Assembly: GCA_903813345.2 (NCBI GenBank)
Contig: CAIIXF020000006.1
Span: forward strand, 19,537,936-19,601,935
Length of the DNA: 64,000 nt
Source of the DNA: Owenia fusiformis
Lineage: Eukaryota > Annelida > Polychaeta > Sabellida > Oweniidae
Direction: 5' to 3'
In this document: positions 21,407-49,300 of the stretch, in pieces
How positions within the stretch are numbered: position 1 is the stretch's first letter
How the letters are laid out: each line of letters starts with the position of its first letter
The notes under the pieces: model-generated
What the model saw: only the letters and a program-made list of their open reading frames with translations
Told to the model about the DNA's origin: nothing
Databases searched by the model: none
Translations under genes and position numbers: made by a program

Positions 21407-22302
21407 ATTAAAAGTAAGTGTCGAAGTTATCCCAAATTTATATACAGGCCCATAGCCAGGATTTAACCAGGGGGGGGTTCACTTTTTGAAAAATTCACTT
21501 AGGGGTTCACTAGTATGTATCCAACAGACTGACTAGAAGTCAGTCTGTTATGATGTAGTACTGTCCTGTGGTTTAGAAATGGATCCCTTGTAGATATATA
21601 TGAAACTGTTAAAATATATGAATTTTACTGGAATGAGCAACATGTATGACCTTTTAGAAAAAAAGTATGGCACAGAATGTTCTCTCTGATAGAGGTTGTG
21701 TTTTTATTTGCTAGCTTTCCCTTGTATGTATGTATGTATATATTTATTTTTTATAAGAAGGAGATCCATGTACATGTATGTACATATTATATGATTATAA
21801 TTTGGAAAAAATGACTGTTTACAAACACTAATTGTTTTGTTTTTTTGACTGACGACGACGCCTAGCTACTGTTTAGATGCACACAACGATCAAGACAGGC
21901 CTAGAATCTAACTCAATTGGACAAAAACACTATTTACAAACTCTCGTTGTTTTTAACTGATGACGACGCTTAGATACAGCATAGACTAGTAGACTAATTG
22001 TGCTAATTATAACAAAACATAACTAAACTGAATTATGATTTCTTTCCAGAAGAAAAAGAATCTGAACCAGCCCAGAAGGAGGAATAATAAATATGAGTAG
22101 TGTAATTATCAATGTGAAACTTATGACTTATATAAATTGAACAAATGAAACGTCAATGAAATAGCAAGCTGTAGTGAGCATGTGTCATTTAAACATTTGG
22201 TCCTGTTAACCGCAAATTCACGAAAGCTTCAAAGTGCATAATAGTGCGGTGCATACACATGTAAATTTATCTCAATAGTAAATAGTGTAAGTTAAGGTTA
22301 TC

Positions 22303-25300
22303 ATGGAAAGTGAACAACCTGAATCTGACAGTAGCAGTGGCGCTAAAGGTCAGCCAATCAGACGTAGCCTACGAAGCAGGAAAAAAAGTTCAAGTCATGA
22401 CATTTGTGGACCACGAAATGAACTGGAAAATATGAGAAACTCTGAAGTTAAAACTTCTAGAACCAAATGTAAGGCTGATATAGTTGTGAGTCACAAAATG
22501 AATTTAAGAAAGCGTAAATTATCTCTTGGAGATGTGAAAACTGAACCTAGAGAAATCGCTGGACCTAGCACAAGGAAACGTGCAAACAGTGTTGGTTTTG
22601 TAGCCCTAAATAAGACCGACTATCAGGTACAGAATAGGGTCAAACCAACGAGAAAGATTTCTGGTGCAGCTGCAACTATCTTGTCTGAGGAATCTAAAAA
22701 GGTAGCCAAAATCAAACCAGCTCAAAATAAGCAACTGGACAAAAGACATGTGCATCTTAATGACAAAGAAGACTTTCTGAAAATGTTATCTCTTGAAATG
22801 CTCTGCCGTATATTGAACTATTTATCCATATATGATGTAATGAAACTAGATTGTCTATCAAGTCAACTGCATCAGGCAGTTAACCTCCATCTTAGGGTTA
22901 GAAAATGGATCGACTTCACTCCAGGTGACCTTTATGGAACAGGCCCAAGGGGGTTTAATGACGCAACTTTTTTGAGTTTCATGCAACGTTGTAAAGACTT
23001 GGAATACATTTATGGATTTCATGTACCGGTGCTTGTCAAACGAAAACAATATCCCAAGAAATGCCTCAGTATCCCAGGAGCCATCAAAGGTTTGTGTTGT
23101 CTTGAGAATCTAAAGGGGATTGAAATTTCTGATATCTTCCTTTTAAGTGCAATTCTGAATTTACTGCCTCATGTCCAGGTATTGAAAGCATTTAGAAACC
23201 GCAATGGAGGTTTCCCGATCCCAGAAACCAACAAACTAGAATTAAAACCTGCTGCTCGAGTCACCACATTAGACCTCACAGGTGTTGTCATATCAACAGT
23301 TCCCAGACTAGAACACACAAAACACCTTCTATTAAACTGGGTGAAACTTACTGACCCGAATCCTTTCAAAGATGTTGTGTTCCCAAACTTAGAGACGTTT
23401 GTAATGAAAAATTGTGCTGGACCAAACAATGCCTTGAAATATCTGACATTAATGACAGCACTAGCTGCAGCTAGGAACCTGCACAGATTAGAACTTGGCC
23501 GTGTTCCTTTCCTAGGTAAGAAACTTTTAGCTGTTAAGCAATAGTCTTGCAAAGTGGTTCAATGCATGCCTTTTTATGTGCAAATCAAGTGTTTTTAACA
23601 ATAGATAGCCTTGCCCAAGTCAGTCTCTTTTACTTATCTTGATTTCTATAATGAACGCCTTGTCCCAATGTGAAAGATGTGTGCTTAAGCGACCCAATGT
23701 TTATGTTGTTTAATTTGACCAATCAACGACAGCCCTGCTGTGTTAGCATTTGAAAACAAATATGCTTTTCATGAACAAATCTCGCACAATTCATTATGAA
23801 AATACAAATATTTGACCAGATAAATATCAGAGTTTAATGAATGCGGGAGCATCAATCGAATACTCGGAGGTGAGAAGATTTCAACATTGTCAAGAAACGT
23901 TGAAAAGATCGCTGAAATGATTAAACATGATAGCTGAGATTCAGATCAATTACTGAATCAGATCGACAACTATATGGACTTGGTCTTCGAGCATTTTCAT
24001 CGCGAATTCAGTTTTAAAATCACATGCTTTGATTTATATTAATGCATGCTCACTGTCCAATGTATATAGAATGTATTGTAACTCTGAAGAAATACTCGAT
24101 CAGATCATTGAAAGTTTCAAGTCGTAGAAGGGTAGTTTGCTTTGTTTATGCAGGTAAACCTGATAATGTTTTGATTGGTTAATCAACCTGAAGTCACAGG
24201 TCGTATCCACTTGATCTTGCCTATCAATACGGTTTTGCGATACCCCTGACTGGGTAGGAATTATTGGAATTTCGAAACTACTGAATAACTGTATCATAAT
24301 ATCAGTGATGATGCATATTAGATTGTACAAGGCAGTTATAATTCAAGATCAGATAAGTAAAAAAATACCGACTTGGGGCACTGCAGGCTGAACAATAAAT
24401 TGTAGCTATTGTAATGTGATATATTCCAGATTCATGAAGAATTTGTTCATTAGAATTTGGTTCTCTGTGAAGTTGACTTTTTCTAGTTGGCCAAGAATCC
24501 TTTAAGGCAACATTTAAAAAAAATTGGAAACAAGTTAACCCCTTTAAATTAGATAAGAATACAAAACCTTTAAAAATGATCTTTAATGTCATACACATAT
24601 GATGTATAAGTCTCTATTTCAGGTGGTCTTATTCAACATCTTGTAGAAGATAGTAGGCGATCACGGGGCTATAGATCACTCCGTAAGATCGTGCTTGCAT
24701 CTTGTAAGCATGCACTGGAGGTTGACCTTGGATATATGATGCTAACATGTGCAGCAGTGTAAGTCTAAAAGCTCTACCAAAGAGCATGGCTTATATAACC
24801 AATATATAATTCAAATCATGGTGCAATTCAGTATAGTTCAAGTATTTTTATGTGAATTTATTTGTTCAACATACATTCACAAATTGGGCTTGAGCAAGCT
24901 ATTGGTAGCACTTTTAGTCCCAAAGAGGTGGATTTTCAAACTTGCTAGAAGAAAACATTTTCCTGAATCATAATTTCACTTAATGTCTTACCTTTCATTT
25001 TTTATTGACCCAGAGATAACTTTTTGGTTCGATATTGGAAAAAATCAGGATGATATTATAAGCTCCAACTTTGGCTCTTCGGAAAGGACACACACATAAT
25101 TGCAATTATAAAGGGTATTTATAAGTTTCAATATATGTTCCACATTTTTTGTTTTAAAGCATGCACATATATGGTTCTAAATAACTAATAGTTTTTATCT
25201 GAATCATTATCATAGAAATGAATTAGGAAGACCAGTCTCGTCACTTGGCCTGTGATTTTGGCAAAAAAGCTCAATCATTTTTCCAATTACGATAATACAT

Positions 25301-28300
25301 GTACTTAATAATGTTGAATATCCTATTCATTTTTCCTTCTGTCTGAATCATTACAAAGTCCTTAATAATGTTTTTTTATATATGAGACAATCATGATAGT
25401 ATATATGTGTACCATATGACGAAACTACACTTGTCCAAAGCTCTTCGGAAAGGACATTTTTTAGTGTATTGCTAAATACTTTTAAACAGATTGAATTTGT
25501 GGGAGCAATTTTCAGAGATTGTACATTTGTTTCTATTCATGTATTCATGTTTTCGAGATTTACCACTGATTACATCATGATCTGCGATTTTTCATAGGTA
25601 AATATATGGGCGATAATAGGGCAAAACATCATTTAAGTAATCACTTTAAGGCTATCATAAATGTACTTAGTTTTTTAGCTGCTGGGCTGGGGACACGTAG
25701 GCCTATGAAACAGCATTATGCACAGAAAAGACTCAATTGTTGGTGGTAATTGTCAGTGAATTGAACCTATTATCACAGGAAAAATAGTGATGAAGATACA
25801 GTTTTATATTTGCGGCATTCTTCATTTGCAATTTTACACTTGAGTGTTTTAAAGGGTTTTACAGTACTGTCCAAATCAAGATTCAATGTAATATTTGTAA
25901 ACATTGTGCTAATGCCTTTATACATCAGTAGAAAAGTTAGTTATAGACATCCAATACAGCATTCCTAATCAGAAATTGGATTGCTCTTCGGAAAGGACAC
26001 ATTTACTTTTGTAGTTCCTGTTTAAGCCTTAGTTACTTCAGTAAAGATATTTTATGTATAAAAGTTCATCAGAAAATATATTCCAGTGTGTTTCTCTTTA
26101 AAATTGTTGGTAAATGCACTGTTTTGACAGAGTTTGTCTTTTCCGAAGAGCTCTTCGGAAAGGACTTTTTTCTTGTGTCGGAATTTTGAAATTGATTTTA
26201 CAGTTATATATGACAGTTCAAAGCTACTTATTTGTTTTGAATATTCAAGAAACTAAATGCATTTTGTTTTAAAATAGTTTTTAGTGTATCATATTACTTC
26301 ACTTCAGTCTTAAAATACACATGCTCTTCGGAAAAGACATTTGCGTGTCGGAAAATCAGTTAGTTATTTTGAGAGCCAATATCTCAGGAACCACTACAGC
26401 CTTTTCTATAATTTTTTTAATGACAGAATTTTAACATTCAGAACTTTTGATATCATCTTAAAAAAACAGTAAGCAAAGTTGAAAAATTCTGTCTTTTTTA
26501 ACATAAGATTTTCAACGAAATGTTACACCAACGGTTGTGTGCTACAAGCGGTTATAAAAACTCTATATACTATTATGGACACACATGTTGCATATCATGT
26601 TAAAGCAAATTCCTTAATCTTTCCAATGCATCCAAATTACTTTAACTTACTCGATTCAAGTACATGCTTGAAGTATATATGTAAATGTGGATTTTTTCTT
26701 GGGAATTTGTTACATAGAGAATAAGGCATATTTTGATACATGAAAATTTATAAAAAAAATATCATTCATCATTCAAAAAAATGATATCTTCCTCAGACAT
26801 ATACTGGATATACCTAATTAATAAGACTGATTTTCCATCTGTATCTTAAGCCTTGCATTTTTTCTGGGTGCCAATATGAAAGTGCTACCAATAGCTTGCT
26901 CAAGCCCAATTACAAAAAACATTTGTCCTTTAAAAAGGTATACCTAGAATATGCTACTATTGTTTAAACTTAACTATTACTATCTAATGTTGAAATACAG
27001 TTATATAATAACTTGTTTGGTCAAAAACTAAAATGATACTTTTTCAGTATTTTGCAGTGAAGCACTACTTTTAGGTACCAAATATATCCCATGAATTTGA
27101 CTGTATGTATAAAACTTTTTTGGTATGTTTTCCTAATGTGTTATAGGCTAGAGGAAGTCCATATCCAACCATCTATCAGTCGTGACAGTATGTTCTCCGC
27201 ACTTATCCTTGCAGAAGCCATCTTCCCACAATTCACCACTCTCACCATTGGATACGTGGATGATTTTCCACAACATGGTAAAATATTTTGCAACTCACAT
27301 TCAAAAACGGTGATACCTGTATAAAATAATTTCCCGCATAAACTAAAAGACAAAGTCAATACAGTATTTAGGAATTGAAAATGGAAAATTGATACCATCC
27401 TTGAAAATGTACACACATGATATTTTTCACTTAAATCCAGATTATGGACTCAAAAATAATTTAATGTTTTGCATAAGGTGAGCCAAATCCTATTGCACAT
27501 CTTTCTACAGTATTTCAAAGTGTGGAATAAAAAGATATGCTAGGTCATACTTAAAAAATGTTTCCTTGACATTTATAGGTAAATGGACCAATGAAGAGTT
27601 GGTTAAGCTTGGATTGGCTGATGTAGCAGAAAGTCCTGCCATGGTGACAGACATTGGTGTACGAGCAGCAGGGCAGGCCTTACCTAGTATGAAGCACCTT
27701 AAGATCTACAATTGCCCACATCTTCACACACCAACCAGCTGGTTCAACCAAGGTAAATATTATCTGGATTTAAGCAAGATTACTTCAGTTGATGTGATAT
27801 GAAATTCAGGGTGTTTGACTGAGTAGTCCACAACTGGCTGTGATATGGACTTGTACATGTACCTCTAGGTATGAGTATGCACATACACATACAAATCTAC
27901 AAGAAAAGAAAGAGTTTCTTTATTTGTCTTCCATCATCACAATTTTACTGTTTGAATATAGAATATAGACACAAGAGGTATTTCTCACCTTCAGGGGTGG
28001 TAAACAAATATAACACAACAAAACCTCCAATATCTTTGAAAAGAAAAGTATGTTAATCCAGCCTTTCACCAACAATTTCCAATTTTTTTTACTTAAAGTC
28101 AATATTGTTGTCAGTCATTCATTAATTCAATTTTGCTTATACATTTAGTTCTAACTGGAAAAAACAATATGTAAATACTCCCCATAAATGAACAAAAATA
28201 TAATATGTGTAATTCTTGTTAAAAGTCGAGCTGATTCATACACAGTCCTTGTATATGTATTTTAGGTAATTCAGGTTTGACAAACTTGACTGAGTTACAT

Positions 28301-31300
28301 CTGCACAGATGCCATGCCATTCAGCTGCCAGACTTCTGCCGGATGATCACACTGCTGCCATCTATAGCGAATGTTATTCTGGAACAAATGTTCAGGGAGC
28401 CACCTAAAGGCTGTGCCAGGTACTATTCTGCTCATTATATTTCATTTTTCCAAAGCCCCCGACAACATTTGGGGATGGAATTTGAATCTCTTTTTCATGT
28501 TGTAATCTTCACATTGGTGAATATCTAAAGATGGTAAAAAATTTTATATTTGAATCTTGACATGCAAGTGACAAGTGATTTTCTTTCAGGCAATTATATT
28601 AATATTTCAATGGTACCAAAAAATAAAGATGTTTTTAAAGGTTTTATGTGTTACCATATGTGAGATTAAAATCTGTAAGCACCTCATAAGGTAGAAAGAC
28701 TAATAGCTGTTACTCTATGATGATATGTATCTTACTCAGTGGTCTCCACAGGATTTTTGTTCAAGTCGGTGCAAAATTCTCATTTTCACAATTCAGACCA
28801 AAACTGGTCAAAATATGCCCATTTTTCATAATTTTTCTCAAGTGGGTGCAAATGGATTAGTGCAAGTCTGTTATCAAAATCTCAGGTGGGCGCTGGCCCA
28901 CTTGCTTTAGTGATGGGGAGACTTGGATATAAACCTGCTTTGCTGTAATTATTGGAGGAAAAAATATTAACATATAAAAAGTGAATAAACTGCCTCATAT
29001 AAAATCAAAGTTTCAATTAGTTTTGATGATTTGAATCTTGAAATACTACTTACCACGTGAGGAGTTTTGCTATGATATTTTCAGATAAGGACGTCTGTAG
29101 TTATGAAATCATAATACTTAAAAAGTTATCTGTTGATGAATTCATCTCCAAATAAAGATAAATACATTGGATTAATAATACTCTAATACTTACAGAGTTG
29201 GACTTAGTGCAGGAACTGGACTGGGGGTGTCTGCAGCCCTTGTTGCCAACAACACAACTGCACCTACTGTCCCTGACAACAACAACAATGATGATGATGA
29301 TGGTGACAATGGTGGCCATAGTGATGATGAGCATGTAGGAGAAGAGGGATATCTGGATTATGATGAGGTGCCTGATGAAATGATCGCTGAAGAACAACTA
29401 GTTGATGATCTTATTGCTGATGAACTTATAGCGGATAACATGTATGAAGATGAGCGGATCATTGTGAGAGAAGAGAGTGCACAACGTGGGGATGTTGACA
29501 ATAAAAGCTTGGACGAGAATCTAGAACTTTCTAGTCATCATGTAAGATCTAGTGAAAACCCGAATCAGGTTGCAGAAGATAAGGAACAAAACCACAAAAA
29601 CCAAAATAATGAATTAGTTCAAATTGAAGAAAATAATCAAGCAAAAGATCAACCTGAGAAAGGCATGGAACCAATTCAGCTCACTTATAATAATGACCTT
29701 TCGAAAGAACCCATTGTAAAAGATAAAAACCCTAAAAAAGTACAACACAATGTGTCAGATGAAGTCATTATAGATATGCCTGATGGTAGTAAACATAAGG
29801 TAGAGGAAGTCATGGAGCATGAACCAACTCAGGCTGAAACTATTGACTCAAAACAAGATGACCTTCAGAAGTCCCAAATCATCAATCCAAATGAATATGC
29901 ATCAAGAAAAAACTCAAATCTAGAAAATAAAACTTTAAATCAAATTGATGGAGACTTTGAAAATGAACATATTGTCAAACCAGAAACTTCAAGTATTAAA
30001 CCTAATGATGATACATGTATTACCTTAGAAACTGAACTTCCTGTAGTTGAAGGACATATGAAGATGGAACATACGGATGATAACACAAAGAATGAAGAGT
30101 ATATTACATTGCAACTTGCTTCAGATGATGACTGTATAACAGTGGAAACTTCTGTAGATATTGATGATGAGAATGAACATATAGGTACTGATACTATTAA
30201 TGCAATACCTGATAAGACAGAGGATGTGTATATCAGTCCTGGACCAACTGAGAAAATTATCCAAATTGATAATCTCAAAAGACCTGAGCCACAAATGATT
30301 GAGCCTAATGAGCCTTATATCACCATAGAGTCAGTAGAAATAGAAACGTCACCCACAATAGATATGGAATCCACAAATGAAATTGTACCAACTACAAATG
30401 AGAGTTTATCTACTCATGAAAAAGCATCCCCAAATTCTAACAATGAAAAATATAGAGAGCCGCCAAATGATCTCATTGATCAAGAATATGGGAAAGTCGA
30501 TGAGAATTCTGATGATGAACTTGTTAGTGCATTTAACATTGATGACATGACAGGTGATGAGCCAATCATCGTCATAAAAGCAGACTTTGATTGTAAACCT
30601 ATGCCATCTGCTAGTGTTAGTGATGTTGACAATACCATTAAACAGAAAAAGGAAGCCCCGTCTGGCTCTATTGAACATAAAACTATGGTAACTGATAGCA
30701 CAGGGAAACAAGTTGAAATCAAGGAACAGATACCCGTTGGAGGCAAGGTTCCTAAAGGTGAAACATTAGTTAGGGGATCAAGTGGGAAAACAAATGGTAA
30801 AAGCGTATATGGAAAAAAGAAGGGCCTTGTTAAAAAGCGTAGTAAAATAAGCGAAACATCTTGTAACATGTCATCGAATCAGGTTTCACAATCTTGCCAA
30901 GCCGTCAGTGAGGAAATCCGAGAGGAAACCAAAGTGGTAAAAGATGATCAAAAAAGTGCCAAAACAGTAAGGAAAGAATCTAAGGGTTGTAACACAGATC
31001 CCCCATTCTGTCCACGGTGCAAAAACTGTAATCCTGATCTAAAAACAACACAACCAGAAGAGGATACAGAAAAACCAAAGGCATCTGATGACAAACCTGA
31101 CAATGGGTGTAACGACTGTAAAGACCCAATTGAGGAACGCATTGGCTCAACATCTGACAAAAGTAACCAATCAAAAGAAGATTCAGGCCTTAGTAAGTCC
31201 AAACCATCCAAGAAAAACTCCAATAACCACCAGTCTCTTGGTGGGATGCTAGCCAGAGGTATGGGTGAAGATATTGATGACACCCTAGATGGTAGTGTCC

Positions 31301-34300
31301 ATGACGTACCACAAGGTGGAGCTTCTCATACAACATGTGATCAGTCGACAAGTACAAGTGATCCAGTGATTGAAGAAGATCATGAGCAGGTAAAGATATC
31401 TTATTACTGTACAGGCCCGTAGCCAGGGGGCAAAAATTCTTTCAAAATCATGCAGTTTTTCACCATTCTGAGGACTTTTCAAGTGATTTTGACCCCTTTT
31501 GGGGAACCCCCCTCGAATTTTTAAAATGTGACCCCCCCCCTTCCTTGGCAAATCCTGGCTACGGGCCTGCTGTGCTCAGCTTAAAGTTAGTGTTAATCAT
31601 GTTTATGTTTTGTCCTGATCAGTAAAAATAGCATTTGCGCAATATTAGAAAAACACAAAGTTGTACATACAGGGTGGGCCAAAAAATTTTGCAACTTTTT
31701 TAAAAGGCTAGAAAAGTATCATAACATGAAGGTATTGACATAAAAATTGATTTACAGAAAGTTTAGGATAGGCATATTTTACCATTCAAATATCTGAGCT
31801 TATACTGACTTCTAATTTTTTGACAGTTCTTTGAATATCAATGGTAAATTGTTCTTGTGTCCAAGATTTACTGTTTTTCCAAGAAAATGTGACTTATTAT
31901 GATTTTATATGTGATCAACAATAACACATTCATTATGTTCACTGAATCTGCTACAATCTTGGATAACTGTTTATTCAATATCTAGGACAGTTTTATATTA
32001 GTATCTACTCACAATGGTATTATGTAATACTGTATCTATAAAACTATTATTAATCAGATGTTCTTACATCCACCTTTCACCTTCACTATCGCTCCCAGCC
32101 ATCGGGCAAGGGTTGCTTTGGAATATCTGGACGAAGATATACCTCTAGATTTATTGGTCCTGATGAATTGCTGCCCAATACACCAGATGCCAACCCCTGT
32201 GACTATCACACATGGAGCAGTTTATTGCAATTAATGGTAATCCACACACAAACTACTGATCAACTAAAAGAAGTTCTGCAAGAGAAATGGAAACTACCGC
32301 AAGAATCCGCTGAATGGCCCCATTGCAGTTCCACCCCCGTGTCTGTGTGATAGTGAAGATGAAAGGCGGATGCATGGAACATTTTTAAATATACAATTAA
32401 TAGATACAGTATAACATAATACCATTGTGAGTAGATACTAATATAAAACTGTACTAGCCATTGGTTAAACAAATATCAAAGATTGTAGCAGATTTAGTGA
32501 ACATAATGAATGTGTTATTGTGATACATGATATCACGAAAAGTCACATTTTCTTGGATAAACAGTAAATCTCGGACACATGAACAATTTACCATTGATAT
32601 TCAAAGAACTGTCAAAAAAATTAGAAGTCAGTGTAAGCTTAGATATTTGAATGGTAAAATATGCCTATCCTAAAATTTCTGTAAATCAATTTTTATATTA
32701 ATACCTTCATGTTATGATACTTTTCTAGCCTTTTAAAAAAGTTGCAAAATTTTTTGGCCCACCCTGTATTAGCTTGATAAATACAAGTGCTGTATGTGTA
32801 CATTTGAAATCCAAATGATATTCAAAACATGAGGTGTATGAAACCAATTAGTACTGTTATTATTTGTTACAAACTTGTACCTCAGTGATTTTAGATAACA
32901 TTTCTTGGCAGATGATGTCTAAAGATTGCCTTAGAGGTATTTAGCATAGATTAAAATGTTACATTTCATTTTTTGATGTCTTCATGTATTTGCTACCAAC
33001 ATTATTGAAGGTGATGACATTAGAGTCCAAGACACTACAGAATCTAACACTCAGAGATGTTGGCATAACAGACCTCATAATGAATGACTGCAAAGAACTC
33101 AGGTCTCTCTCAGGTAACTTGAAACAAGAACAAGGTACTTTTCTCCAAATTAAATGCAACTGAGTATCAAGTTTTTATTTGTCTATTCTTACTAAGAAAT
33201 GACTCAAGTTCAACCAAAGCATCCAAATTTTCTGATTTGCCCAATTTTGAATTGTTTTAACTGGTCATACAGTAATTTTCCAAATAGATGCAGATTATCT
33301 GGATTCTTAAGCTTGGTAAGCTAAGCTACTGACATGAAAAAAAGAATGTACAAGACTGGACTGGACGTTGTAGTCTGTTCTCAAATTGTATGAATAATTG
33401 GAAATTTGGGAAAAAAATAAAAAAAGATTGATACATAAAATAATATAATGTAACGGGAAACAGTGAGCTTATTTATTCCACACCCCTTGTACAAAAATAA
33501 TTTGTTATTTGATTTAATATTTATGTTTTAGGGAATGGTTGTCGTGTACTAAAGTTTGTGTCCATACACAACAGTAACACAAGCTTAGAACGTGTCTCAT
33601 TTGCTCAGTGTCGTAAACTTGACCATCGCCATCTATTGTGGGAAGTCAGCAGATCACCCAGCTACAAGGATAGACTTGTCTTTTTACGCCCAATGAGAGA
33701 TGTGAGTCTTTGAGGGTTTGTGGGAATATTGGAGTTTACTAATGCTGTAAACCTAAAATCTAGATATCACAAAAAGTATCTCGCTTATCTTTAATAAAAA
33801 TGCAAAATTTATTGATGTAAAACTATAATTATAAGGGTGATCAAGATTTCACTCAGTTCTTACTCTACATGTGTTGTGTTGTGTTTCTTTTTGTGACAAT
33901 ATGATTGGAAAGAACTAAGGGCTCACATTTGGAAAAAAGTTAAAACAAAAACAAATGCTTCTATTTCAGTATGATCCAGTAGAGATTGAGCGTACCTTGT
34001 TCAGTTCATGGATAGTTGACTACAATCTCTGCCTCATACATGACCACTCACCTAGTCCAAGTGGGACCTTCCCTCTAAGACACAAGCTGGAGAACTGGCT
34101 GGAGATAGCAGCAGATATCAACCAGTAAGTCTTAATTCAGCTCAGGAAGAAAGTTCAAAAACATCCTCATCCATTTCATCCATTCATCTCTCCAAAAACA
34201 TCCTCTGATCAAACCATGGAACAACATTATCTTTTCCATCTTTTAGGCCTTGTGAATGTCAATGTTCCTCTCCTTCCAGTGACTTTAATGTTTCACTTTC

Positions 34301-35497
34301 CATGGACTTCAATTATTAATATACTTGCATTATGTCAAAGAAGAGCACATTTACTACATACATGTTACGTAAATATTTTTGCCATTTAGACACATCTTGC
34401 ACCATATGGACTTCCCTGAGCGTAAACTGGACTTCAATCATCCTAGATACCCTTGGGGAAGGAACATGTATACCATGAGAGGTAAAAGAATATGTCATAG
34501 TAGTAGGGAGATGTCATGTATTTGATAAAAGAGGGGAGGGGGATAAATATGATTATACGCCATGAGAATTAAAGAGAAGATGTATGATAAATATTGGAGC
34601 TCTTTTAAAAGTGAAGATATACATGGCATAGGAATTTAGATGTAGAATCCCATCCCTACATCTTTATTAAAAAGATATATTGGCCCAAAAAACGAAAATG
34701 TCTCTACTTCTTTAAATTTTCACAGGAGAAGTAATGAGTATCAAACAAATTCTTGTTGCAAGAGTATGATTTGATAGAAAATATGGGGGCTTATCAAAGG
34801 GATTCAAAGTTTGATGTTATTACATGTATATGAATATTGCAGGAAATGCAGAGAATGGATCACCATATGAAGTCTTGACGGACATCCCCTGGATTAGAGC
34901 ACTGCAAGAAATGGGGGTGGATAACTCACTGGTGGATTTTATGGGCAGAATAGGCTCTCCATATGATTGTAAGTTACCCTTCATAAGGGTTAGACCTCTA
35001 GACTCTCTTAATAAAAGATAATTCTTTTTCCAGCAAATATCAAATCAGACTGCAAACAGAAAATTTGGTCAAAAATCATGACATTAGATTGAGGATAAAG
35101 ATGAAAACTACCACACTGAAATCAACTTATGAGATAATAGTAATGAGAGGAAAATGAACCACTGTGATCATGTTTTAAAAAACAAAAAAGAGTAGTTAAG
35201 AAAGGAATTATCCAGGAATGGAGTAAATTGCCATGTTGCTAACACTCTAAATTGTACGGATTACAGAAATCAGTCTGTTCATTCAAATTTCTGAATTATC
35301 TTTGTGACTTTTGCATATATATGTACATGTATGTGTTTTCAGATGGAGCATTATTTGAGTGCTGGGATAAAGATGAACTTCACGAGTTGATATGTGATCT
35401 TAGCAAGGAACAAACTGGGGTGCATGCCTGTAGTGTTGGAGTCTACATCAATTTATGTGATCTTGATAAAGAGCCAGCTCATGATATGTACCTCTAA
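22303..35497 (+). CDS. FBXO38: F-box only protein 38
   Basis: Twelve coding exons: 22303-23515, 24623-24758, 27147-27277, 27579-27752, 28266-28419, 29196-31389, 33011-33113, 33532-33701, 33970-34124, 34390-34481, 34843-34968 and 35343-35497. They sum to 4,803 nt in one frame, 1,600 residues against about 1,190 in human. Residues 1-155 are a basic, disordered extension. The F-box is at about 157-200 ([20 protein letters not shown]) and the LRR-like repeats at about 200-600, with the family signatures [22 protein letters not shown] and [19 protein letters not shown]. Exon 6 (about 603-1334) is an acidic, disordered insert containing CPRCKNC and ending [16 protein letters not shown]. The conserved C-terminal domain ([25 protein letters not shown]) follows. 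The protein is the substrate-recognition subunit of an SCF ubiquitin ligase. In mammals it is known as MoKA, a KLF7 co-regulator, and it ubiquitinates PD-1. Upstream non-coding exons are not resolved. Confidence 0.95.
23607..23650 (-). repeat. SINE/LINE-type 3' tail copy (FBXO38 intron 1)
   Basis: GCCTTGCCCAAGTCAGTCTC and TTTTACTTATCTTGATT match the tail segments at 4629-4680 and, inverted, at 24342-24380. Confidence 0.45.
24342..24380 (+). repeat. SINE/LINE-type 3' tail copy, plus strand
   Basis: AATTCAAGATCAGATAAGTA, A run, then TACCGACTTGGGG. It is inverted relative to the copy at 23607-23650 and lies about 0.25 kb upstream of FBXO38 exon 2. Confidence 0.45.
24881..26912. mobile_element. 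2-kb inverted-repeat element in FBXO38 intron 2
   Basis: A perfect 33-bp terminal inverted repeat runs AATTGGGCTTGAGCAAGC, TATTGGTAGCACTTT (24882-24914, inverted 26879-26911). Inside, the motif CTCTTCGGAAAGGACA or a one-base variant occurs five times (about 25074, 25440, 25984, 26150 and 26324). One copy lies in a head-to-head palindrome TTTCCGAAGAGCTCTTCGGAAA centre (about 26141-26160). No transposase is recognisable. The superfamily is unknown. Confidence 0.65.
27806..28024 (+). mobile_element. Headless copy of the 4704-5042 SINE
   Basis: Shares CAGGGTGTTTGACTGAGT, GGCTGTG, and CTCACCTTCA followed by GGTGGTAAACAAA with the full copy, but the tRNA-like head is missing. It begins about 55 bp after the donor of FBXO38 exon 4. 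Confidence 0.7.
28738..28915. mobile_element. Interspersed repeat, copy A (FBXO38 intron 5)
   Basis: CATTTTCACAATTCAGACCA, GGTCAAAATATGCC and CCCACTTGCTT are shared with 50218-50408. The ends AGTGGTCTCC and GGGGAGACTT are partly inverted, which suggests a short MITE. Confidence 0.6.
31412..31569. mobile_element. MITE with CAGGCCCGTAGCCAGG ends
   Basis: Perfect 16-bp ends: CAGGCCCGTAGCCAGG at 31412 and CCTGGCTACGGGCCTG at 31569, with runs of G and C just inside. It inserts 22 bp after the donor site of FBXO38 exon 6. The element at 7180-7460 and a one-ended fragment at about 21447 (GGCCCATAGCCAGGA) look related. Confidence 0.75.
31670..32766 (+). mobile_element. Degraded mariner-like transposon (FBXO38 intron 6)
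   Basis: CAGGGTGGGCCAAAAAATTT at 31670 and its inverse ending CACCCTG at 32766, each next to TA. The inverted arms are very long (more than 350 bp) and still closely matched. A transposase remnant lies in the middle. Confidence 0.8.
32075..32350 (+). pseudogene. Mariner-like transposase remnant
   Basis: The frame reads [18 protein letters not shown], then [19 protein letters not shown]. This matches the C-terminal part of DD34D/DD37D-type transposases (PDxNPxDYxxW, then eLk..l...W..l.). The N-terminal and first catalytic parts are missing, so it is not functional. Confidence 0.6.
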
Positions 35498-37968
35498 AAC
35501 AATGAATTGTGTTAGTTGACAAGGGTACATGCCTGTAGTGTAGGGGTTTACATCAATTTATGTGATCTTGATCAAGAGCCAGCTCATGATATGTACCTCT
35601 AAAACAATGAATTGTGTTAGTTGACAAGGGTACATGCCTGTAGTGTTGGAGTTTACATCAATTAATGTGATCTTGATCAAGAGCCAGCTCATGATATGTA
35701 CCTCTAAAACAATGAATTGTGTTTGTTGACAAGGGTACATGCCTGTAGTGTTGGAGTTTACATCAATTTATGTGATCTTGATCAAGAGCCAGCTCATGAT
35801 ATGTACCTCTAAAACAATGAATTGTGTTAGTTGACAAGGGTACATGCCTGTAGTGTTGGAGTTTACATCAATTAATGTGATCTTGATCAAGAGCCAGCTT
35901 ATGATATGTACCTCTAAAACAATGAATTGTGTTAGTTGACAAGGGTACATGCCTGTAGTGTTGGAGTTTACATCAATTTATGTGATCTTGATCAAGAGCC
36001 AGCTCATTATATGTACCTCTAAAACAATGAATTGTTTTAGTTGACAAGGGTACATGCCTGTACTGTTGGGGTTTACATCAATTTATGTGATCTTGATCAA
36101 GAGCCAGCTCATGATATGTACCTCTGAAACAATGAATTGTGTTAGTTACTGACAAGGGTACATGCCTGTAGTGTTGAGGTCTACATCAATTTATGTGATC
36201 TTGATCAAGAGCCAGCTTATGATATGTACCTCTGAAACAATGAATTGTGTTAGTTACTGACAAGGGTACATGCCTGTAGTGTTGGAGTTTACATCACTTA
36301 ATGTGATCTTGATCAAGAGCCAGCTTATGATATGTACCTCTAAACCAATGAATTGTGTTAGTTACTGACAAGGGTACATGCCTGTAGTGTTGAGGTCTAC
36401 ATCAATTTATGTGATCTTGATCAAGAGCCAGCTTATGATATGTACCTCTGAAACAATGAATTGTGTTAGTTGACAAGGGTACATGCCTGTAGTGTTGGAG
36501 TCTACATCAATTTATGTGATCTTGATCAAGAGCCAGCTCATGATATGTACCTCTAAACCAATGAATTGTGTTAGTTACTGACAAGGGTACATGCCTGTAG
36601 TGTTGGAGTTTACATCACTTTATGTGATCTTGATCAAGAGCCAGCTTATGATATGTACCTCTGAAACAATGAATTGTGTTAGTTACTGACAAGGGTACAT
36701 GCCTGTAGTGTAGGAGTTTACATCAATTTATGTGATCTTGATCAAGAGCCAGCTCATGATATGTACCTCTAAACCAATGAATTGTGTTAGTTACTGACAA
36801 GGGTACATGCCTGTAGTGTTGAGGTCTACATCAATTTATGTGATCTTGATCAAGAGCCAGCTTATGATATGTACCTCTGAAACAATGAATTGTGTTAGTT
36901 ACTGACAAGGGTACATGCCTGTAGTGTAGGAGTTTACATCAATTTATGTGATCTTGATCAAGAGCCAGCTCATGATATGTACCTCTAAACCAATGAATTG
37001 TGTTAGTTACTGACAAGGGTACATGCCTGTAGTGTTGGAGTTTACATCAATTTATGTGATCTTGATCAAGAGCCAGCTCATGATATGTACCTCTAAACCA
37101 ATGAATTGTGTTAGTTACTGACAAGGGTACATGCCTGTAGTGTAGGAGTTTACATCAATTTATGTGATCTTGATCAAGAGCCAGCTCATGATATGTACCT
37201 CTAAACCAATGAATTGTGTTAGTTACTGACAAGGGTACATGCCTGTAGTGTTGAGGTCTACATCAATTTATGTGATCTTGATCAAGAGCCAGCTCATGAT
37301 ATGTACCTCTGAAACAATGAATTGTTTTAGTTGACAAGGGTACATGCCTGTAGTGTAGGAGTTTACATCAATTTATGTGATCTTGATCAAGAGCCAGCTC
37401 ATGATATGTACCTCTAAACCAATGAATTGTGTTAGTTACTGACAAGGGTACATGCCTGTAGTGTTGGAGTTTACATCACTTAATGTGATCTTGATCAAGA
37501 GCCAGCTTATGATATGTACCTCTAAAACAATGAATTGTGTTAGTTGACAAGGGTACATGCCTGTAGTGTTGGAGTCTACATCAATTTATGTGATCTTGAT
37601 CAAGAGCCAGCTCATGATATGTACCTCTAAACCAATGAATTGTGTTAGTTACTGACAAGGGTACATGCCTGTAGTGTTGGAGTTTACATCACTTTATGTG
37701 ATCTTGATCAAGAGCCAGCTTATGATATGTACCTCTAAAACAATGAATTGTGTTAGTTACTGACAAGGGTACATGCCTGTAGTGTTGGAGTCTACATCAA
37801 TTTATGTGATCTTGATCAAGAGCCAGCTTATGATATGTACCTCTAAAACAATGAATTGTGTTAGTTACTGACAAGGGTACATGCCTGTAGTGTTGGAGTC
37901 TACATCAATTTATGTGATCATGATCAAGAGCCAGCTTATGATATGTACCTCTGAAACTGAAACAATGA
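35420..37968 (+). repeat. Minisatellite made from the FBXO38 C-terminus and stop codon
   Basis: About 23 head-to-tail units of 105 or 108 bp follow the genic copy. Each unit contains ACATGCCTGTAGTGTTGGAG, TTTACATCAATTTATGTGAT, CTTGATCAAGAGCCAGCTCA, then TGATATGTACCTC and TAA or TGA, then AACAATGAATTGTGTTAG. This is the end of the last FBXO38 exon from codon GTG-CAT-GCC onward, plus 27-30 bp of 3'UTR. Both unit lengths are multiples of three, so the frame ([14 protein letters not shown]) persists, but each unit has two in-frame stops. Units with TTAGTTGAC are 105 bp and those with TTAGTTACTGAC are 108 bp. The genic copy has GATAAAGAG where the repeats have GATCAAGAG. The array would be in the 3'UTR. 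Confidence 0.95.
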
Positions 37969-38579
37969 ATACTGTAACTTATGGACAAACAATTTGTGAC
38001 AGACCATGTGGTCTTTGGATAATTGAATTCAGAAAAAGCTTAATGGCTTTGATGAAAGAGAGAAAAATATTGTGTATACTCCAAAAAGGATTCAGTACAT
38101 TGCTTAATATTTGGCAATTCATCAATTCTATGCAAGATGTCAATTGAAATGTGTATCAGTTTCTTGGTCACAATGTTATCCTATGTAATTGTGTTTCATG
38201 GAGTTTTTGCAAGTTTTCTTTGAACGTACATTGTCGCCAATGTCCAATTGTGAACAAACTAGTGCTTGTAAAATTTTGCTATGATAGTGACTGTATGAAC
38301 ATAATCATGTATAATGTCATTCCCTATCCAGCTTGAATGCACTGTTAAGGAATCAATAATGGCTGGACTCTCCTCTTCTTTGGCATTGACCAAAATAGAA
38401 CAGCCAAGTTTGTATTTAGGTCCTTGGGAGAATATGGGAATAAACCACAAAGACCCGATGAAGGACTAGACACAGTATTACTAAAATGTTTAAGGAATTT
38501 GGAATGTAATCTCTCATGAAATTATTATTTGCTTTGTGAGCTAGTATGATTATTTCTACTTTAGTATTGTTATGAAATT

Positions 38580-38585
38580 AATAAA
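38580..38585 (+). terminator. Polyadenylation signals of FBXO38
   Basis: AATAAA at 38580, with further copies at 38607 and 38615, about 3.1 kb after the stop codon and beyond the minisatellite. They are candidates for the end of a long 3'UTR. Earlier use of a weaker signal cannot be excluded. From 38620 to 39100 there is no gene, only a short duplication (GCATAAGTGGGATATCT at about 38914 and 39015). Confidence 0.45.
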
Positions 38586-39100
38586 GAATTTTTACTCCAG
38601 CTTCTAAATAAACAAATAAATGTTTTTCTTTGTAAAATTATATCTTTATTTGTATAATATTAGGCAATAAGCATACTCCATTTAATATTGGTTATTCATA
38701 GGAAAACAATCCAATATATTGACCTGAGTTCTTTGGACTACACTAACAAAAGTAAAGCCCTATATTTACAATTTCTGAACATTTCATTCAGCTATCATGT
38801 GTTCTTCATTTTCTTTTGTCCTCATAGTAAAATTTGGTTTTTAGAAATGTGTGTTAAAAATGTGAGTTTTGTAACAAAGGGAATTTCAAAAGAATAACAT
38901 TATTTTCTTTCCAGCATAAGTGGGATATCTGGGAATTACATGAAAGCTAAAATTGAATCGAAATTCCCACGATTTTGAGCTAGTTCATTAATGTGTCCTC
39001 ATAGTAAAATTATAGCATAAGTGGGATATCTTGGAATTAATGAATCTTCAGAACTTGCAATTCAATAAATAACCCCCTAGTGATGGAATGGTTACACTAC

Positions 39101-40374: not shown

Positions 40375-43300
40375 TTACGATTTGATATCACTTTTCTTTG
40401 TATATTGCAGTTTTCTCTTCCATGCATTTGAATTCCTCCTCATGCAAAGGGTAGAAAGGTCCAAAAACACTATGAACACCATAAAAGAGATTAGAATGAT
40501 TATAGCAAATCCTCCTATTGTCAAAGATGCTGCATCTGTGGCAAGGAACATGACTTCCGGCTCCTTGGTAAAAATTGTTGTTGACGGGGTTGAGGCCATG
40601 GTATGAAAGAATATGCCATTCAGTATTTCATCAGCAGTAAGACGTCTCTTATGATTTTCTATTGAATTAGAGCTTGTCTCCGGTGTTAATAAGGTGTTAT
40701 TCCTTGATTCTTCTGGAACAATCATAGATGGTTCTGCATAATTTGAAATTATAGATTGGCTTGTGGTCATTAGATCGATGGGTGATTGAGTGCTGGTCGT
40801 TGGATCAACAGTAGATTGAGCATTGGTCATTGAATCAATGCTAGGTTGAGCGTTGCTCGTTGAATCATTGGTAAATTGAGTGGTGGCCATTGCGTCAATG
40901 ATAGATTGAGTGGTGGTTGATGGATCAATAGGAGATTGAGTAGTGGTCCATGGATTAACAGTTGGTTGAGTAGTGGTCGATGGATCAATGGTAGATTGAG
41001 TGGTGGTCGATGAATAGATGGTAAATTGAGTGGTGGCCATTGCGTCAATGATAGATTGAGTTGTGGCCAATGGATCAATGGTAAATTGAGTGGTGGCCAT
41101 TGCGTCAATGATAGATTGAGTGGTGGTTGATGGATCAATGGTAGATTGAGTGGTGGTTGATGGATCAATGATAGATTGAGTGGTGGTCAGTGGATCAATG
41201 GTAGTTTGAGTAGTGGTCGATGAATCAATGATAGATTGAGTGGTGGTCAGTGGATCAATGGTACTTTGAGTAGTTGTCGTTGAATCAATGGTAGATTGAG
41301 TGGTGGCCAATGGATCAATGGTAGATTGAATGGTGGACAATGGATCAATGATAGATTGAGTGGTGGTCGTTGAATCAATAGGAGATTGAGTAGTGGTTGA
41401 TGGATCAACGGGAGATTGAGTAGTGGTCAATGGATCAATGGTAGATTGAGAAGTGGTTAGTGGATCAATGGTAGTTTGAGTGGTTGTCGTTGAATCAATG
41501 ATAGATTGAGTAGTGCTTGATGGATCAACGGGGGATTGAGTGGGGGTCGATGGATCAATGGTAGATTGAGTGGTGGTCGATGGATCAACGGTTGATTGAG
41601 TATTGGTCGTTGAATCGATGGTAGATTGAGTGGTGGTCGTTGAATCAATAGGAGGTTGAGTAGTGGCCGATGGATCAACGGTTGATTGAGTGGTGGTCGA
41701 TGGACCAACGGTAGAGTTAATGGTTGTCGATGGACCATTGGTATATTGTGTGGTAGTCACTGAATCAATGATAGATTGGGTGGTGGTCGATGGAACAACC
41801 TCGGATTGAAATGTGACCGCTGAGAAAACGGTTAGTGGCTCACTTTTGGAGGTGGCTTGAACAGTTTTGGTTTGAACCTCAGAACAAGAGTGCATATCAT
41901 CCACCAACTCAGCCGTGAATATAGGAACTTCAGATGTAGTGTAGGTCGCTAAGAATCCACAATTTGTCGTAGAATCAGCAAACTGTATACAGATACCATC
42001 TGCGTTGTATATTTCGTTCTTGATAATATATACTGTTCCTACATCATTCGAACAAACTCGAACTGCGTTGTATAAGTTTACCTGCAAATAGAAGATACAA
42101 TAGGTAACATATTTCAATCTTTTTGAAGGAATTTCAGAATTTGATATGGCTGCCAAAACCATCCGCCCGCCCGCTGCCCGTCCGTCTGTCTGTTTGTCCG
42201 CTTGTTGTTACGCGGTAAACACGATACAAATACATGTCATATTCTGCAATGAATATAGCATATTCACTTGCGGTGTATGATAGATTCACCTGCGGTATGT
42301 GGCATACAAAACAACCAATGAGAACGCGATTCGGAAGAACGAAATTGTCAATTACATCGATTCAATGAACGGGCTAAAGTATATAAATTATTATAATGAT
42401 TACTGAATCAACAGGTCAGTGCATCGCATATATCAACTAATACAATTGAATAACATACACCAGTGGTATCTGTATTGTTTGATCATTCAACAATTACACG
42501 TAACAAACGTACATAATCAATCCAGGATCCATGTATTAGTACTCGAAGCGCTAACATTATTGGTTATCCAGCGTAGTTTTGCATTTAGAATCGATTCTTT
42601 TGACCAATCAAATCGAGGCTTTCCTGTATCGCGTTTTCACCTGCGGTATATGGCATATTCCGCAGGTGAGTATGCCATATTCCGCAGGAGAGTATGACAT
42701 ATTCCGCAGTGAGTATCGGTTACTCATTGAAATCAATGTATCGCATACTGTATAAGTGGTATTTAATCCGAGTGGTTTATTTTCCGAATGGTCAAATTTC
42801 ATAATTTTCCTAATTTTAATTTTCCTAATGACAAGAAACCTCCCATTGGATAACATTATAAAGATAATATTTCCGACATTTAATTTTCCGAACCTGGAAA
42901 AAATTAGGAAATAGGCAAATTAAATGATTAGGCAAAATTACCACTTATACAGTATTCACTGCGGAATATGCCATACTCACCTGCTGAATATGCCATACAC
43001 CACAGGGGAGTATGGCATATTCACCTTTATCACAAATACCGCACAACCATAAACATATGCCATATTTTGCGTAACACTTGTCAAAACAATTGGACAATTA
43101 AAAACTCCCATTCATCTGAATCAATGCTCGTATCTCATATTTTGGGGTTCAATACTGGTTTACACCACTAGTTTCGACTCCTACTTTCGCCTCATTTTGG
43201 GGGGAAATTGTTTTTTTTGTCGTCATCACCACGTTAGCCCAGCGAATGGTGCCATTTTGGTAACATGTCAATTCGTGATAGTCCTTTTGTGGCAGTAAAT

Positions 43301-46300
43301 GTGAAAATGAAGTCCCCTTTTCAAGTCTAATGTTCATCTTATGTTTAATTCTCGTTTTTCATTTCGTTTCCTATGATAAATTTAATAGTTGATATCAAAG
43401 CACTTCATATTACTGTTGTTTAATATATTGTCTTTGAATTTAAGGAATTAAAAAATAATTAGATGGCGAGAGTGTTGAAAACAATATTGTCAAAAAAAAC
43501 AATGATTCCATACAATCCTAATTTTATTTACTTGATAAAGAACTGAGATATCCGATCAAATATTGAAGTTACTAAAGTACAAGTATTAGTTACTAATAGA
43601 TAGTAAGAAATAAGTAAAATATTATGAATCAACTAATGAATCAATCCCTTTTGAAAATGTTGTCATTTGTGCAATCGGAAGATAAGATACCATCATACGT
43701 ACCTCGCTAATAGCGACTGGCCTTGAGAATGTAAGACGGATATTCCACCCATTTAAAGGCGTGTTTGATGACAGCAGAAAATACACTTGGATGTTCCCTA
43801 TCCATCCTCTAGTAAGTGCTATATCAACTTTTGCATCTAAAATGATATTGAAAAAATTAGGATAGGCCTACATTAGTACATACGGTCCCTGTACAAGCCA
43901 AATGGTTGTCTGTTTAATTGTTCACGATTTTTTCATGTACAATTTCTGGCTCGTTTTATTTTATTTTACTATCTAGTTCATAATACAGGGTGGGCCAAAA
44001 AACGCCACAAGACACTATAACTTTTTTATTTTCCAACCTACATACCCCATATTTTGCAGTTATATAGTGCCAAGGGTTCTTAGTAATAATATAATGTAAC
44101 AAGTCCTTCAACTGGGATTATATTTGATCTAAAAGAGGAGTTCAATTGGTCCGCCACACCATTTGATGATAGATTTTAGTTTTAGTCGCCTTGCTGATAG
44201 CAGTATTAATGAAATGTTAGTTACATTTTTTCAACATGTCTTAATTGCCAGCTTTAGTTGAGCAATTGCCTTCATACCATCTCCTGGAGACCTCCCGATA
44301 CCCTATACTCACTTGGGTTCGCATTAGGGCTATTAGCTTGGCGGTCATCAGGGCGTATCAGTTTAGAAACATTTTGCAAATTATGCTTATTTCTCATGGC
44401 ACATCATATGTTTAAGTAAGACGCTGGTGACATATTTTATTCAAGTATATAATTCATGATCCATGGCTAGATAACAACCTCAAGTTTCATTTGGTATGCA
44501 AATTATGATTTTGTATCAAAAATTAAAAAAGTTATTAGCATTTTGAAAAAAAGTGGCGTTTTTTGGCCCACCCTGTATATTAAAAATAAATATATATATT
44601 CATTAATTTTTCAGAAGGGTCGAAACGTTTTCTCGATATACTAGTAATAGAAGGCTTTATGGAATGCATTTTAATTTTATGCCAAATGATGACGATCAGA
44701 TAACGATACCATAGACTCAAATAGTAAATGCTACTGTTCGGTACCTAGTCTAGCTACAAGCCCTTGCACATTTCTCTGTGTGAGAGGTTGTTTAGGCAAG
44801 TAGAGGGGGGTCACACAGGCTTGTAGCTAGACTATTCGGTACCGTCCAATGGTACCATTCTCAATATGTACTGATATCAATGCTACCATGCGGTACTACG
44901 TTCTATTTGGATTGTACGGTGTAGGGACTTTGACTTCAGAGGGGTCCGCGCATTATACCGAAACCCATTATATCGACGCGCATTATACCGAAACCCAATA
45001 TACCGACGCGCATTGTACCGACGCGCATTGTATCGAAAGGTGTTATACCGAATGCCATAATCACTGTTCCGCAACTAGTTACTTTGACGGAACGTCAATG
45101 TAACAAAATGGATGGACTTCCTGGTTACGAATTTTTTGCTTTCTCGATTTAAACCTACTAATAAGTCAAGTTGAAGATTATAATTTGGCCCAAAGCTTGG
45201 AAATATAGCCTAGTTTTAATAAGTTTCTTCGATTTGGAATTTGTTTTGTAAATGAAGCTGTAATTCATAAACTAAGCCCCTCGCTTTTGTTACATTGACG
45301 AAAGCCTGTTATATTACCAATGTATGTTACTTTGTCAATGGGGATTTAGCCCGACCATTTTTAGAAAACTTGAAAATCTCTAGAATTTGAAAAGGTAAAT
45401 AACAGTGCAAAAACTAAGTTGTTTTGATAGAAAATTACACACAGAATTCAAATAGAAGAAAATGTTAGTCTTTAGTGGTTAAAAATGCAGATCTCCTAAA
45501 ATCTCATTAAAATATGAGACCTTAACGAGATTTCAAAGCTATATGGAAAAGCCACTATAAGATAGATGCCTTCACTAGGCTATTCGTACTTGTGTCCGTG
45601 CCTCATTTTGAGTAGCGAGTGTAAATTCTTTTTGGGAACATGATTATGTTTTCCCTGTAATATGAATTGGAGATATCTGACAAAATATGGATAGCCTAAA
45701 ATATAAATTTTGTGTTTTTGAACATGCGGAAATATCTTGAACACTTTGAAACTGAAGTACAGTTCCTTAATAGGTCGTTCAGTTTTCTTGTTTTTGTTCT
45801 ACCCAACACTTGTGTTTAATAGCCACGCGTAATTATTAATAAGCGTAATCAGATTATTTCAAGCGTCGAAATAGCTTATTTTCCTCGACGTATCTGCAAA
45901 AACCTATTACTCACTTACCGTTATATTGAGCGACCTAGATGCGTCAATTATAATTGTTTTCACTCATCGGCTTTAGTGGCCCGCGATACCCTTTATTTCA
46001 TTCATTTGAGACGCAATTGATATATTGGCAACAAATCAAATGTTCTAAATGATTCTTCTTCATTTGGGAATGTTTCTCCTACCCGATAGTCAAAGATGTG
46101 TCTTAAATATTATACTTTACATTGATCACGATTCTTGGACTTTCTGTCTTTACGACTCCCGTTCACATTTGCAAGAGTTGTTGATTGCATTGCCTTGATC
46201 GTTGGTCGAACTTCGATTCCAACTAAATCAGATTAATCAATTAAGAAATGTAATATCATGTTTATCCAAGCAAATAATTGTAACAACTACATTATTTTTT

Positions 46301-49300
46301 AGCAGTTTTTGACACCTAAGCAGGGTAGACTAGTGGCGTAAACTGAGGCTACTTTGCGGTTGAACGTCGTGGGATACGGAGGTCCCGCGTTCGAGCCCCA
46401 GGTACGGAGTTGTTGATCATTGTCACTACGGACACCCGGTCCGAAGGTCCAACCGTTTACCGGCCCTTGGCATGGGTTGGTTCTCTGGCCGCTCTTGCCG
46501 GAGACAGATTGTGAGACTGTGGTTTCTCTGGCCGCTCTTGCCGGAGACAGATTGTGAGACTGTGGTTGGTTCCTCCACTAACGTGCTTTAGTAAACTCCG
46601 GGAGTCATATAGTATGGTAGCGGGCCCCCACCAAGGGCAGTAGTGGAACGACGCGAATCGGTCCCAGTATGGTTGCCTTGCAACTGAAGAGACTCGAGGA
46701 AATCATGCCATTCGCAGTGACCCAGAAAAGACTTTTGCTTCTTTATTTGACGTTTTAATTCATTTATTTACATACTTTATTCATATTACTTTCCAGGCAG
46801 TTATGATTTTTATTGGTCAAATGAATGAACGAGACGTATAGATACTATTAAATACATCTAGATAGTATCAAAACCATAATTCGATTTGTCGGACATATAT
46901 AAAATAACACTTGAAAACACAACACACATAGCTGCAATATCCGTAGCATTTGGCACTGTCGGTTCCCACGCTCTGTCATTTTGTGCGGTCATAATAAGAT
47001 AAGGAGGTACGGTTGATTGAACCATGGGCTTTCAACAGAGTCCAGAAATTGGCATGGATACTTTGAGAAATGAGGTAGCAACAAAAGGAAACACCTGATA
47101 TAATCCAGAAATGTACACACCATTGTTTTCGTTAGTTATGGCAAGGCCCCGGAGGAAAAACAGCATTCGTGGGTAGCTTAATTTTTGTACCAATTAGAGC
47201 CATGACTTAAACTCAACCAAGAACGGTGGAGCAAAGTCACTATGGGTCCCAATTGAGAATCAATTCAAATCAAAATCCAATTGAGAATCAGATGACCTGC
47301 TAAGTCTAGTATTGATTTGTCCCTAAATAGATATTAAAGGGGCGCTGAATATTGGATAATGAGCACCATTTTAAACTGCCAATTAAAACATGTATTCAAT
47401 GTTTCAAAATAATGATACTGAAATATTGGGCAAAATAATTGATATTTCGTTTGTGGAATGAAAACTGATGATAGAGATAATATCAGTAGCCAACAACTAT
47501 ATAAGCAATTTAAACATGGAAGTGATGCCAATTTCGAAGTATTGTATGAAAAGAAATGTTTGTGAAATGGTTAGAAAATTAAATAATTTCAGAATTAATG
47601 GGATAATTGAGGCACACATTGATAAAAATCACACTTGGATTTGGAAAGATTTAAAGTAAAACAAATGAATGCGTTTCTTATTATTTCCATGACAACATAT
47701 CTTGCCCTCTCTCCATGACAACAATTTTTGGCCCCATCAGCACAAGATCGAAAATACAGTAATTATCAAGTTCAATAAGAAATGTGAAACTTTGTATTTA
47801 ATAGCACAATTATTTATTTCTACCAATGAAACAATACAGTATAGATAAATGTTTATCCATTGAATACAGAATTTACCGCGGTTAAATATATTTTATGAAG
47901 TACAGGGTTTACCATAATCAAACATAAATAACAGAATTATGACTTTATCCTCTTTGAAATACAGAAATTGATGGTTCACTGGAATTAAGTTTGTTGAGAC
48001 GACCCCTCAATCCAAAACGCCTAGCATCAGTTAAAAAAATTCTGGCCACAACTGAGATGTAAAGATGTTCAAAGATTTTAAATTAAGCTTTATCTGAAAA
48101 TATGTTTTTGCGCAATAAACTTTTAATTGAATATGAATATATAAACAAAAGATTAACAACATCCAGTCTCATATTTAAAATTTTAAAGTTAAAACATTGT
48201 GGAAGTAGATAAAAATCATGTAGAATTTGAACCAAGGTGTATGATAAAGTAATATATAAACTATCTATTTTATATGCTGATACAGTAGAATTTCTCTTGG
48301 CTTTTCAACATAGAATTGACTTTTCAGGCTCCACTTTTATTATTCTATGCCTATATAATGTTACTGTGCACTGTCATACATGTACTTAATCATTAATCTA
48401 CATGACGTTTTGAAAGAGTATTGAGCTAGATTCAAAGCACCGTTCTTGCGAGTTTCAAATGAAAATATTGAAAAATGCGCGAGTATGAGGACTGCAACTT
48501 TGTATATCTACACTGACAATTGAACTTGAAATTCCCGGTGTAAATATAGTCCCACGCGGAAGTGCACGTCATAAAACTGATGGGTTAAGGCAATGTGCCG
48601 TTTTACTGGCACGGATTTCGGTACAACGCGCATCGGTAAGCCTTTTCGGCACAATGCGCGTCGGTATAATGGCTTTTGGTATAATGCGCGTCGGTATAAT
48701 GGGTTTCGGTATAATAGGCGTCGGTATAATAGGTAGTAAGCTAGCACCCAAAAATGTATTAGTTCGTGAACAAATTGAAATTACTTGTTTCTTATGTATT
48801 TTTATGTGATACTTCAGAAAATGTTTGTCTGACGCGCCGTATCCGGGGCGAAAGTTGTCAAATTGGCGTTTTCGACCCTAAAGTGGAAAATTACAGGGGG
48901 TACTTTATCATCATAGAATAAATCATTCAGTTGGTCTTCAATCATCATAATAATTTTATGGGGAGTTGATTGGATCATGCTGAGGTAGTATATTAAGTTT
49001 CAATCACCTGTCACTCATGGTTGCCATGGAAACCACAATTTTCATTGAAAAATCCTTAATTTTGGCAAAACCTGCACAGGTACATAATATAGAATGAGGA
49101 TTTTTTTTCAAATCAACAGATATAAGAATATTTTAGCACACCCAAAATTGCCAGGGAAGTTCAAGCATTTGTTTAAGCATAAAGGATATTGCAATTTATA
49201 TAATTGGTAAGTGTCAAAGACCATACTACTACATAAGTGATCAAAAGTGGGCGTCGCCCCCATATTAGTGAATGAATACCATTCTCTGAAAAGACAGAGT

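Follow-up and report, generated by a model that had tools for sequence, protein, structure and literature searches.

The 3′-untranslated region (3′-UTR) of human SLC6A3 contains a VNTR with a 40-bp repeat, and the VNTR of CEL is located in the last exon of that gene and is translated. CEL is described as carrying a VNTR (PMC8692231), and PRDM9 as having a coding minisatellite (PMC3890296). The literature on repeats with stop codons or exon ends, as covered here by titles and the opening lines of abstracts drawn mostly from outside the subscription journals, mentions no repeat whose unit includes a stop codon. Here, we analyse a window of 64,000 nucleotides (the whole stretch of DNA examined, positions 19537936–19601935 of its contig) from the annelid Owenia fusiformis, in which the coding end of an FBXO38-like gene, together with its stop codon and trailing DNA, forms a tandem array. 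As in minisatellites of the SLC6A3 type, the repeat is tandem and probably lies in a 3′-UTR, but most of its unit is derived from the final codons and stop of the gene itself. Like the CEL VNTR, the array is situated where the coding region of a gene ends; unlike the CEL repeats, which are translated in an open frame, every unit here includes a stop, so that only the first should be translated. In the PRDM9 minisatellite, as in the array, tandem units undergo turnover through exchange, but there they encode zinc fingers that are translated and selected, whereas no sign of coding selection emerged here in a small test.

The FBXO38-like gene extends over 22294–35497 on the forward strand, a span bounded 5′ by the first large open frame of an exon and 3′ by the stop; its start codon and exon borders are provisional. 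Its last coding exon (35343–35497, +), which ends with the coding part of the first array unit, was delimited by eye from its splice sites (an acceptor TTTTCAG precedes 35343, and the donor GTAAGT of the preceding exon lies at 34969) and from the frame that stays open to the TAA. The identity proposed by the first-pass annotation is supported by 13 collinear tblastn matches between 22759 and 35494 (E 5e-70 to 0.009) to pieces of human FBXO38, a query whose sequence is unverified. One of these matches (33967–34305) crosses a stop and therefore probably extends into an intron. Matches beyond the collinear set fall on array units (E 0.15–1.8) or are scattered (E of 0.34 or higher), and the F-box itself (PF00646) scores E 0.044 and 14.2 bits, under the Pfam cut-off of 20.5. 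The first large exon has one match in the whole genome, and a comparison with the PDB matched no chain up to E 1. FBXO38 has been linked with hydrophobic degrons (PMC10567573), and vertebrate FBXO38 is reported as highly conserved (PMC9234700). The C-terminal piece of the unverified human query matches the last exon, including the peptide of the first array unit up to its last residue (29% identity, E 0.007); on this basis this peptide is plausibly the ancestral end of the protein, from which the array would be derived.

Within the last exon, 35391–35418 resembles 35454–35481, which lies 63 bp further on, at 19 of 28 positions (a level also reached in 23 of 2000 codon shuffles); this is perhaps an older duplication. 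The gene is flanked by three mucin-like frames that look alike by eye (2444–3436, +; 17025–18032, +; 40375–42207, −), which are rich in Thr and Ser and contain 30-bp coding repeats of the TTQ type as well as a hydrophobic C-terminal stretch that is similar among them; none of the three matched Pfam at E 0.01. The opposite-strand frame, of 610 codons, ends at 40375 and, if it is a gene, therefore converges with the FBXO38-like gene. Farther away, 57751–59595 (−) encodes a leucine-rich repeat protein (LRR_8, E 2.1e-37) with an Ig-like stretch (I-set, E 3e-4) that remains under the cut-off.

TRF places the array at 35418–37957 (period 108, 23.8 copies, 94% matches; also listed at period 429), a length of 2.54 kb with head-to-tail orientation throughout. 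Cutting at GGGT[GA]CATGCCTGTA yields 24 units, the first starting at 35418 and the last at 37875, with unit spacings of 105 bp in 9 and 108 bp in 14 of the 23 cases; the two lengths differ by a single 3-bp block (ACT) in the spacer. Both the copy number of 24 and the unit lengths of 105 or 108 bp that had been proposed are thus confirmed. According to the unit split and the reading frame, unit 1, the genic unit (35418–35522, +), comprises the last 25 codons of the gene (35420–35494), the TAA (35495–35497), and a spacer of 27 bp, in agreement with the earlier description of the unit as coding end, stop, and trailing DNA. Units 2–23, of 105 or 108 bp each, occupy 35523–37874 (+) by TRF and the unit split.

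The 3′ edge of the array (37875–37988, +), recognized by unit comparison, consists of unit 24 and a diverged spacer. The 25-codon part of unit 24 differs by one change from that of unit 23, and a 6-bp insertion lies 3′ of its stop. The tail of its spacer shares 12 of 18 bases with the array spacer; among the downstream window positions tested, a fraction of 0.00027 reach the same level of identity. This resemblance suggests that the first duplication extended to approximately 37988, with divergence of the edge during homogenisation of the interior. The end of the array, previously put at 37968, is accordingly better described as a stop of high identity at approximately 37957 followed by weaker similarity to approximately 37988. 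The motif ACAAAC occurs near both putative break points and may represent microhomology there.

A search of the genome (498 Mb in 525 contigs) returned at least 24 matches to the unit, these counts being lower bounds, and all the matches listed lie at this locus. An origin from satellite DNA, with arrays at many places, or from a mobile element was therefore rejected, there being no other copy among those matches. The units of about a hundred bases, their head-to-tail order, the total length of 2.54 kb, and the single locus found are those of a minisatellite, a class whose units range from tens of bases to about a hundred and whose arrays range from 0.5 to tens of kb. A G+C-rich unit is typical of classical human minisatellites, though not required; the G+C content of this array is 0.37–0.38 in 500-bp windows inside it.

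Sequence variation among the units bears on how the array has evolved. On average, two of units 1–23 differ at 4.6 positions. Between unit 1 and units 2–23 there are 3–8 differences, compared with 0–10 among the latter (lags 1–13). Variants are common to non-adjacent units in a mosaic pattern, identical units exist (e.g., 13, 15, 17, and 19), and exact repeats of 230 bp or longer are absent from the array, for which reasons it appears to have been mixed by exchange between units. Clean recent duplications of several units at once were rejected on the same lack of long exact repeats, the 429-bp period of TRF representing a loose order. Two sites among the 24 units are private to unit 1, namely AAA (CAA in the others) and GTG (GTA in the others), and they set the genic unit apart by a single amino acid (K for Q). 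The difference between gene and array that had been pointed out is therefore real, and it lends weak support to the associated proposal that the array was homogenised apart from the gene: the two private sites speak for it, but the distance of unit 1 lies within the spread of the other units. Since a single assembly is the sole source of the locus, a small repeat might have been expanded by mis-assembly; the mean of 4.6 differences arranged in a mosaic, rather than as clean copies (some units being identical), as well as a contig of 40.8 Mb and a window without any N, makes such an artefact highly unlikely.

With respect to coding status, 25 uninterrupted codons are present in 20 of the 24 units, whereas units 3, 5, 9, and 20 carry a TAA at codon 12, so that the statement that nearly every unit still encodes the peptide holds for the former and fails for the latter. 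A stop at the end of the peptide (TAA or TGA) is found in 24/24 units, and it is followed by a TAG in the spacer in 22 of them. The two in-frame stops described between successive peptides are accordingly general except in unit 3, where the spacer TAG is lost, and in unit 24, whose spacer has diverged. On either strand, the longest open frame over the array does not exceed 69 codons; a coding VNTR, with its continuous open frame, is thus not what is found.

A hand count of the 75-bp coding part gave 12 changes (4 silent, 7 amino-acid, and 1 nonsense), with the change in unit 24 and the two unit-1-specific sites counted and the TAA/TGA stop difference omitted. The expectation without selection, with transitions weighted two to one, is 23/73/4% for the three classes (two-sided binomial P 0.49 for silent changes), and without the two gene-private sites 3 of 10 changes are silent (P 0.71); resting on 12 changes, the test has little power and could not reveal mild constraint. 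Both length changes (3 bp and 6 bp) are multiples of three, and the coding part contains no indels. Such changes are also expected under a coding reading, but the stops in every unit argue otherwise, and the multiple-of-three unit lengths remarked on earlier are not upheld as a sign of coding: no frame is kept open, and the peptide varies like unselected DNA, in small numbers. A coding array was rejected on the stops in 24/24 units and the neutral-like changes. Given the nonsense codons in 4/24 units, these neutral-like changes, the absence of an open frame, and folding of four units that is no better than that of shuffles, the array looks non-coding and neutral.

The whole peptide being open in 20 units, the units could conceivably serve as alternative protein ends, joined by splicing or gene conversion, and so diversify the C-terminus. 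The sequence of unit 1 is also the same as that of units 2 and 4 over codon 18 to the spacer end, a pattern that recent exchange or duplication would produce. We nevertheless regard this use of the units as highly unlikely in view of the nonsense codons in four units, the lack of an excess of amino-acid changes, and the single private amino-acid difference of unit 1; in a crude comparison based on one unit, moreover, its CTGTAG is preceded by 8 pyrimidines in 19 positions versus 11 in 19 at the real acceptor, a small gap.

Polyadenylation-type signals AATAAA are located at 38439 (the first) and 38580, and neither AATAAA nor ATTAAA occurs between the gene's stop and 38439. The array is therefore probably contained in a 3′-UTR of approximately 3.1 kb, with its presence in the mRNA judged from these signals, and the long repetitive 3′-UTR anticipated by the first-pass annotation is probable. 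The rest of this putative 3′-UTR would span 37989–38605 (+), its end being set by the signal search, and region 37960–38610 has one match in the whole genome. AATGAA, a weak variant of AATAAA, occurs 24 times, once per unit, and the message might end early at one of these within the array.

A position in the 3′-UTR, together with the lack of AATAAA and ATTAAA before the array end, would also suit a regulatory element whose repeated short sites dampen FBXO38 or soak up small RNA. TACCTC and TGTGAT, which correspond to six bases of the seeds of let-7 and of the miR-2/K-box type, each occur 23 times in 35495–37957, where ATTTA occurs 17 times. However, the TACCTC and TGTGAT sites lie in the coding-derived part of the unit and are explained by copying. 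None of the 32 seed families considered has a 7-base site in the array, and one unit compared with its shuffles is unremarkable (2 families with a 6-base site versus a mean of 0.79; 0 with a 7-base site versus 0.36). Structured RNA was likewise rejected: of the 24 units, four were folded (units 1, 8, 16, and 24, the last with flank), and none was clearly better than shuffles (z-scores of −0.47, −0.43, 0.66, and 0.31, respectively). At gathering scores, Rfam matched the whole window only once, marginally and outside the array. No positive sign of function was thus found in the array among the four units folded and the 32 seed families, and a regulatory role is highly improbable. A broader reading, in which the array is a live reservoir whose later units repeatedly rewrite the last 25 codons by exchange with unit 1, now and then transferring the codon-12 TAA, and in which some two dozen copies of short sites in the 3′-UTR adjust FBXO38 dosage through copy number, is very unlikely.

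The single Rfam match is tRNA-like (15340–15395, −; 32 bits versus a gathering score of 29); ARAGORN reports none there, and the match may be a SINE remnant. Elsewhere in the window, 15-base tandem arrays at 9095–9279 and 11019–11190 are inverted with respect to each other, their longest pairs being 93–97% complementary, and they enclose a second inverted pair of 185 nt (9312–9496 and 10236–10420); the arrangement is possibly a mobile element with repeat-built ends. Another element-like inverted pair of 15-base arrays (CGCGCATTATACCGA) is found at 44947–45061 and 48637–48734, approximately 3.6 kb apart.

A genome sample of 15 stretches (150 kb) was also examined for arrays with a period of at least 20 and a length of at least 200 bp; these were present in seven places, two of them exceeding 0.8 kb. 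One is a 0.89-kb array with 80% matches, and the other, which runs off the start of its stretch, measures at least 1.86 kb with 90% matches; both are, as far as seen, shorter and less alike than the array of 2.54 kb and 94%. Sizeable arrays are common in this genome, and an array across a stop codon is therefore not very surprising. Taking two sizeable arrays per 150 kb and assuming 25,000 genes, some tens of arrays across stop codons would be expected by chance, a rough estimate that rests on two arrays and ignores selection. The persistence of such an array is easily explained, since the protein is not altered by a duplication in which the stop is included.

We consider it highly probable that the locus is a gene-end minisatellite, that is, a stop-containing tandem duplication grown by unequal exchange, of which unit 1 is still the end of the gene. 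In the order of events that we infer, a tandem duplication would have copied the segment from 25 codons 5′ of the stop to approximately 27–30 bp 3′ of it. With the stop codon lying inside the copied segment, the protein would still end in the first copy, and the duplication would have been silent and able to persist. With two copies in place, unequal exchange or conversion could have multiplied and mixed them to 24, a process that is presumably continuing. The copies after the first would be untranslated, probably in the 3′-UTR of the mRNA, evolving without coding constraint and presumably without function. Mechanically, the array is most likely ordinary.

The significance of the gene-end minisatellite lies in the route that it represents, in which a tandem duplication containing the stop multiplies coding DNA without changing the protein; as the protein is spared, coding sequence gains a neutral route to a minisatellite. 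The locus may also serve as a test of exchange, with unit 1 presumably under selection and its 23 neighbours free to decay, so that population data should reveal conversion into the gene.
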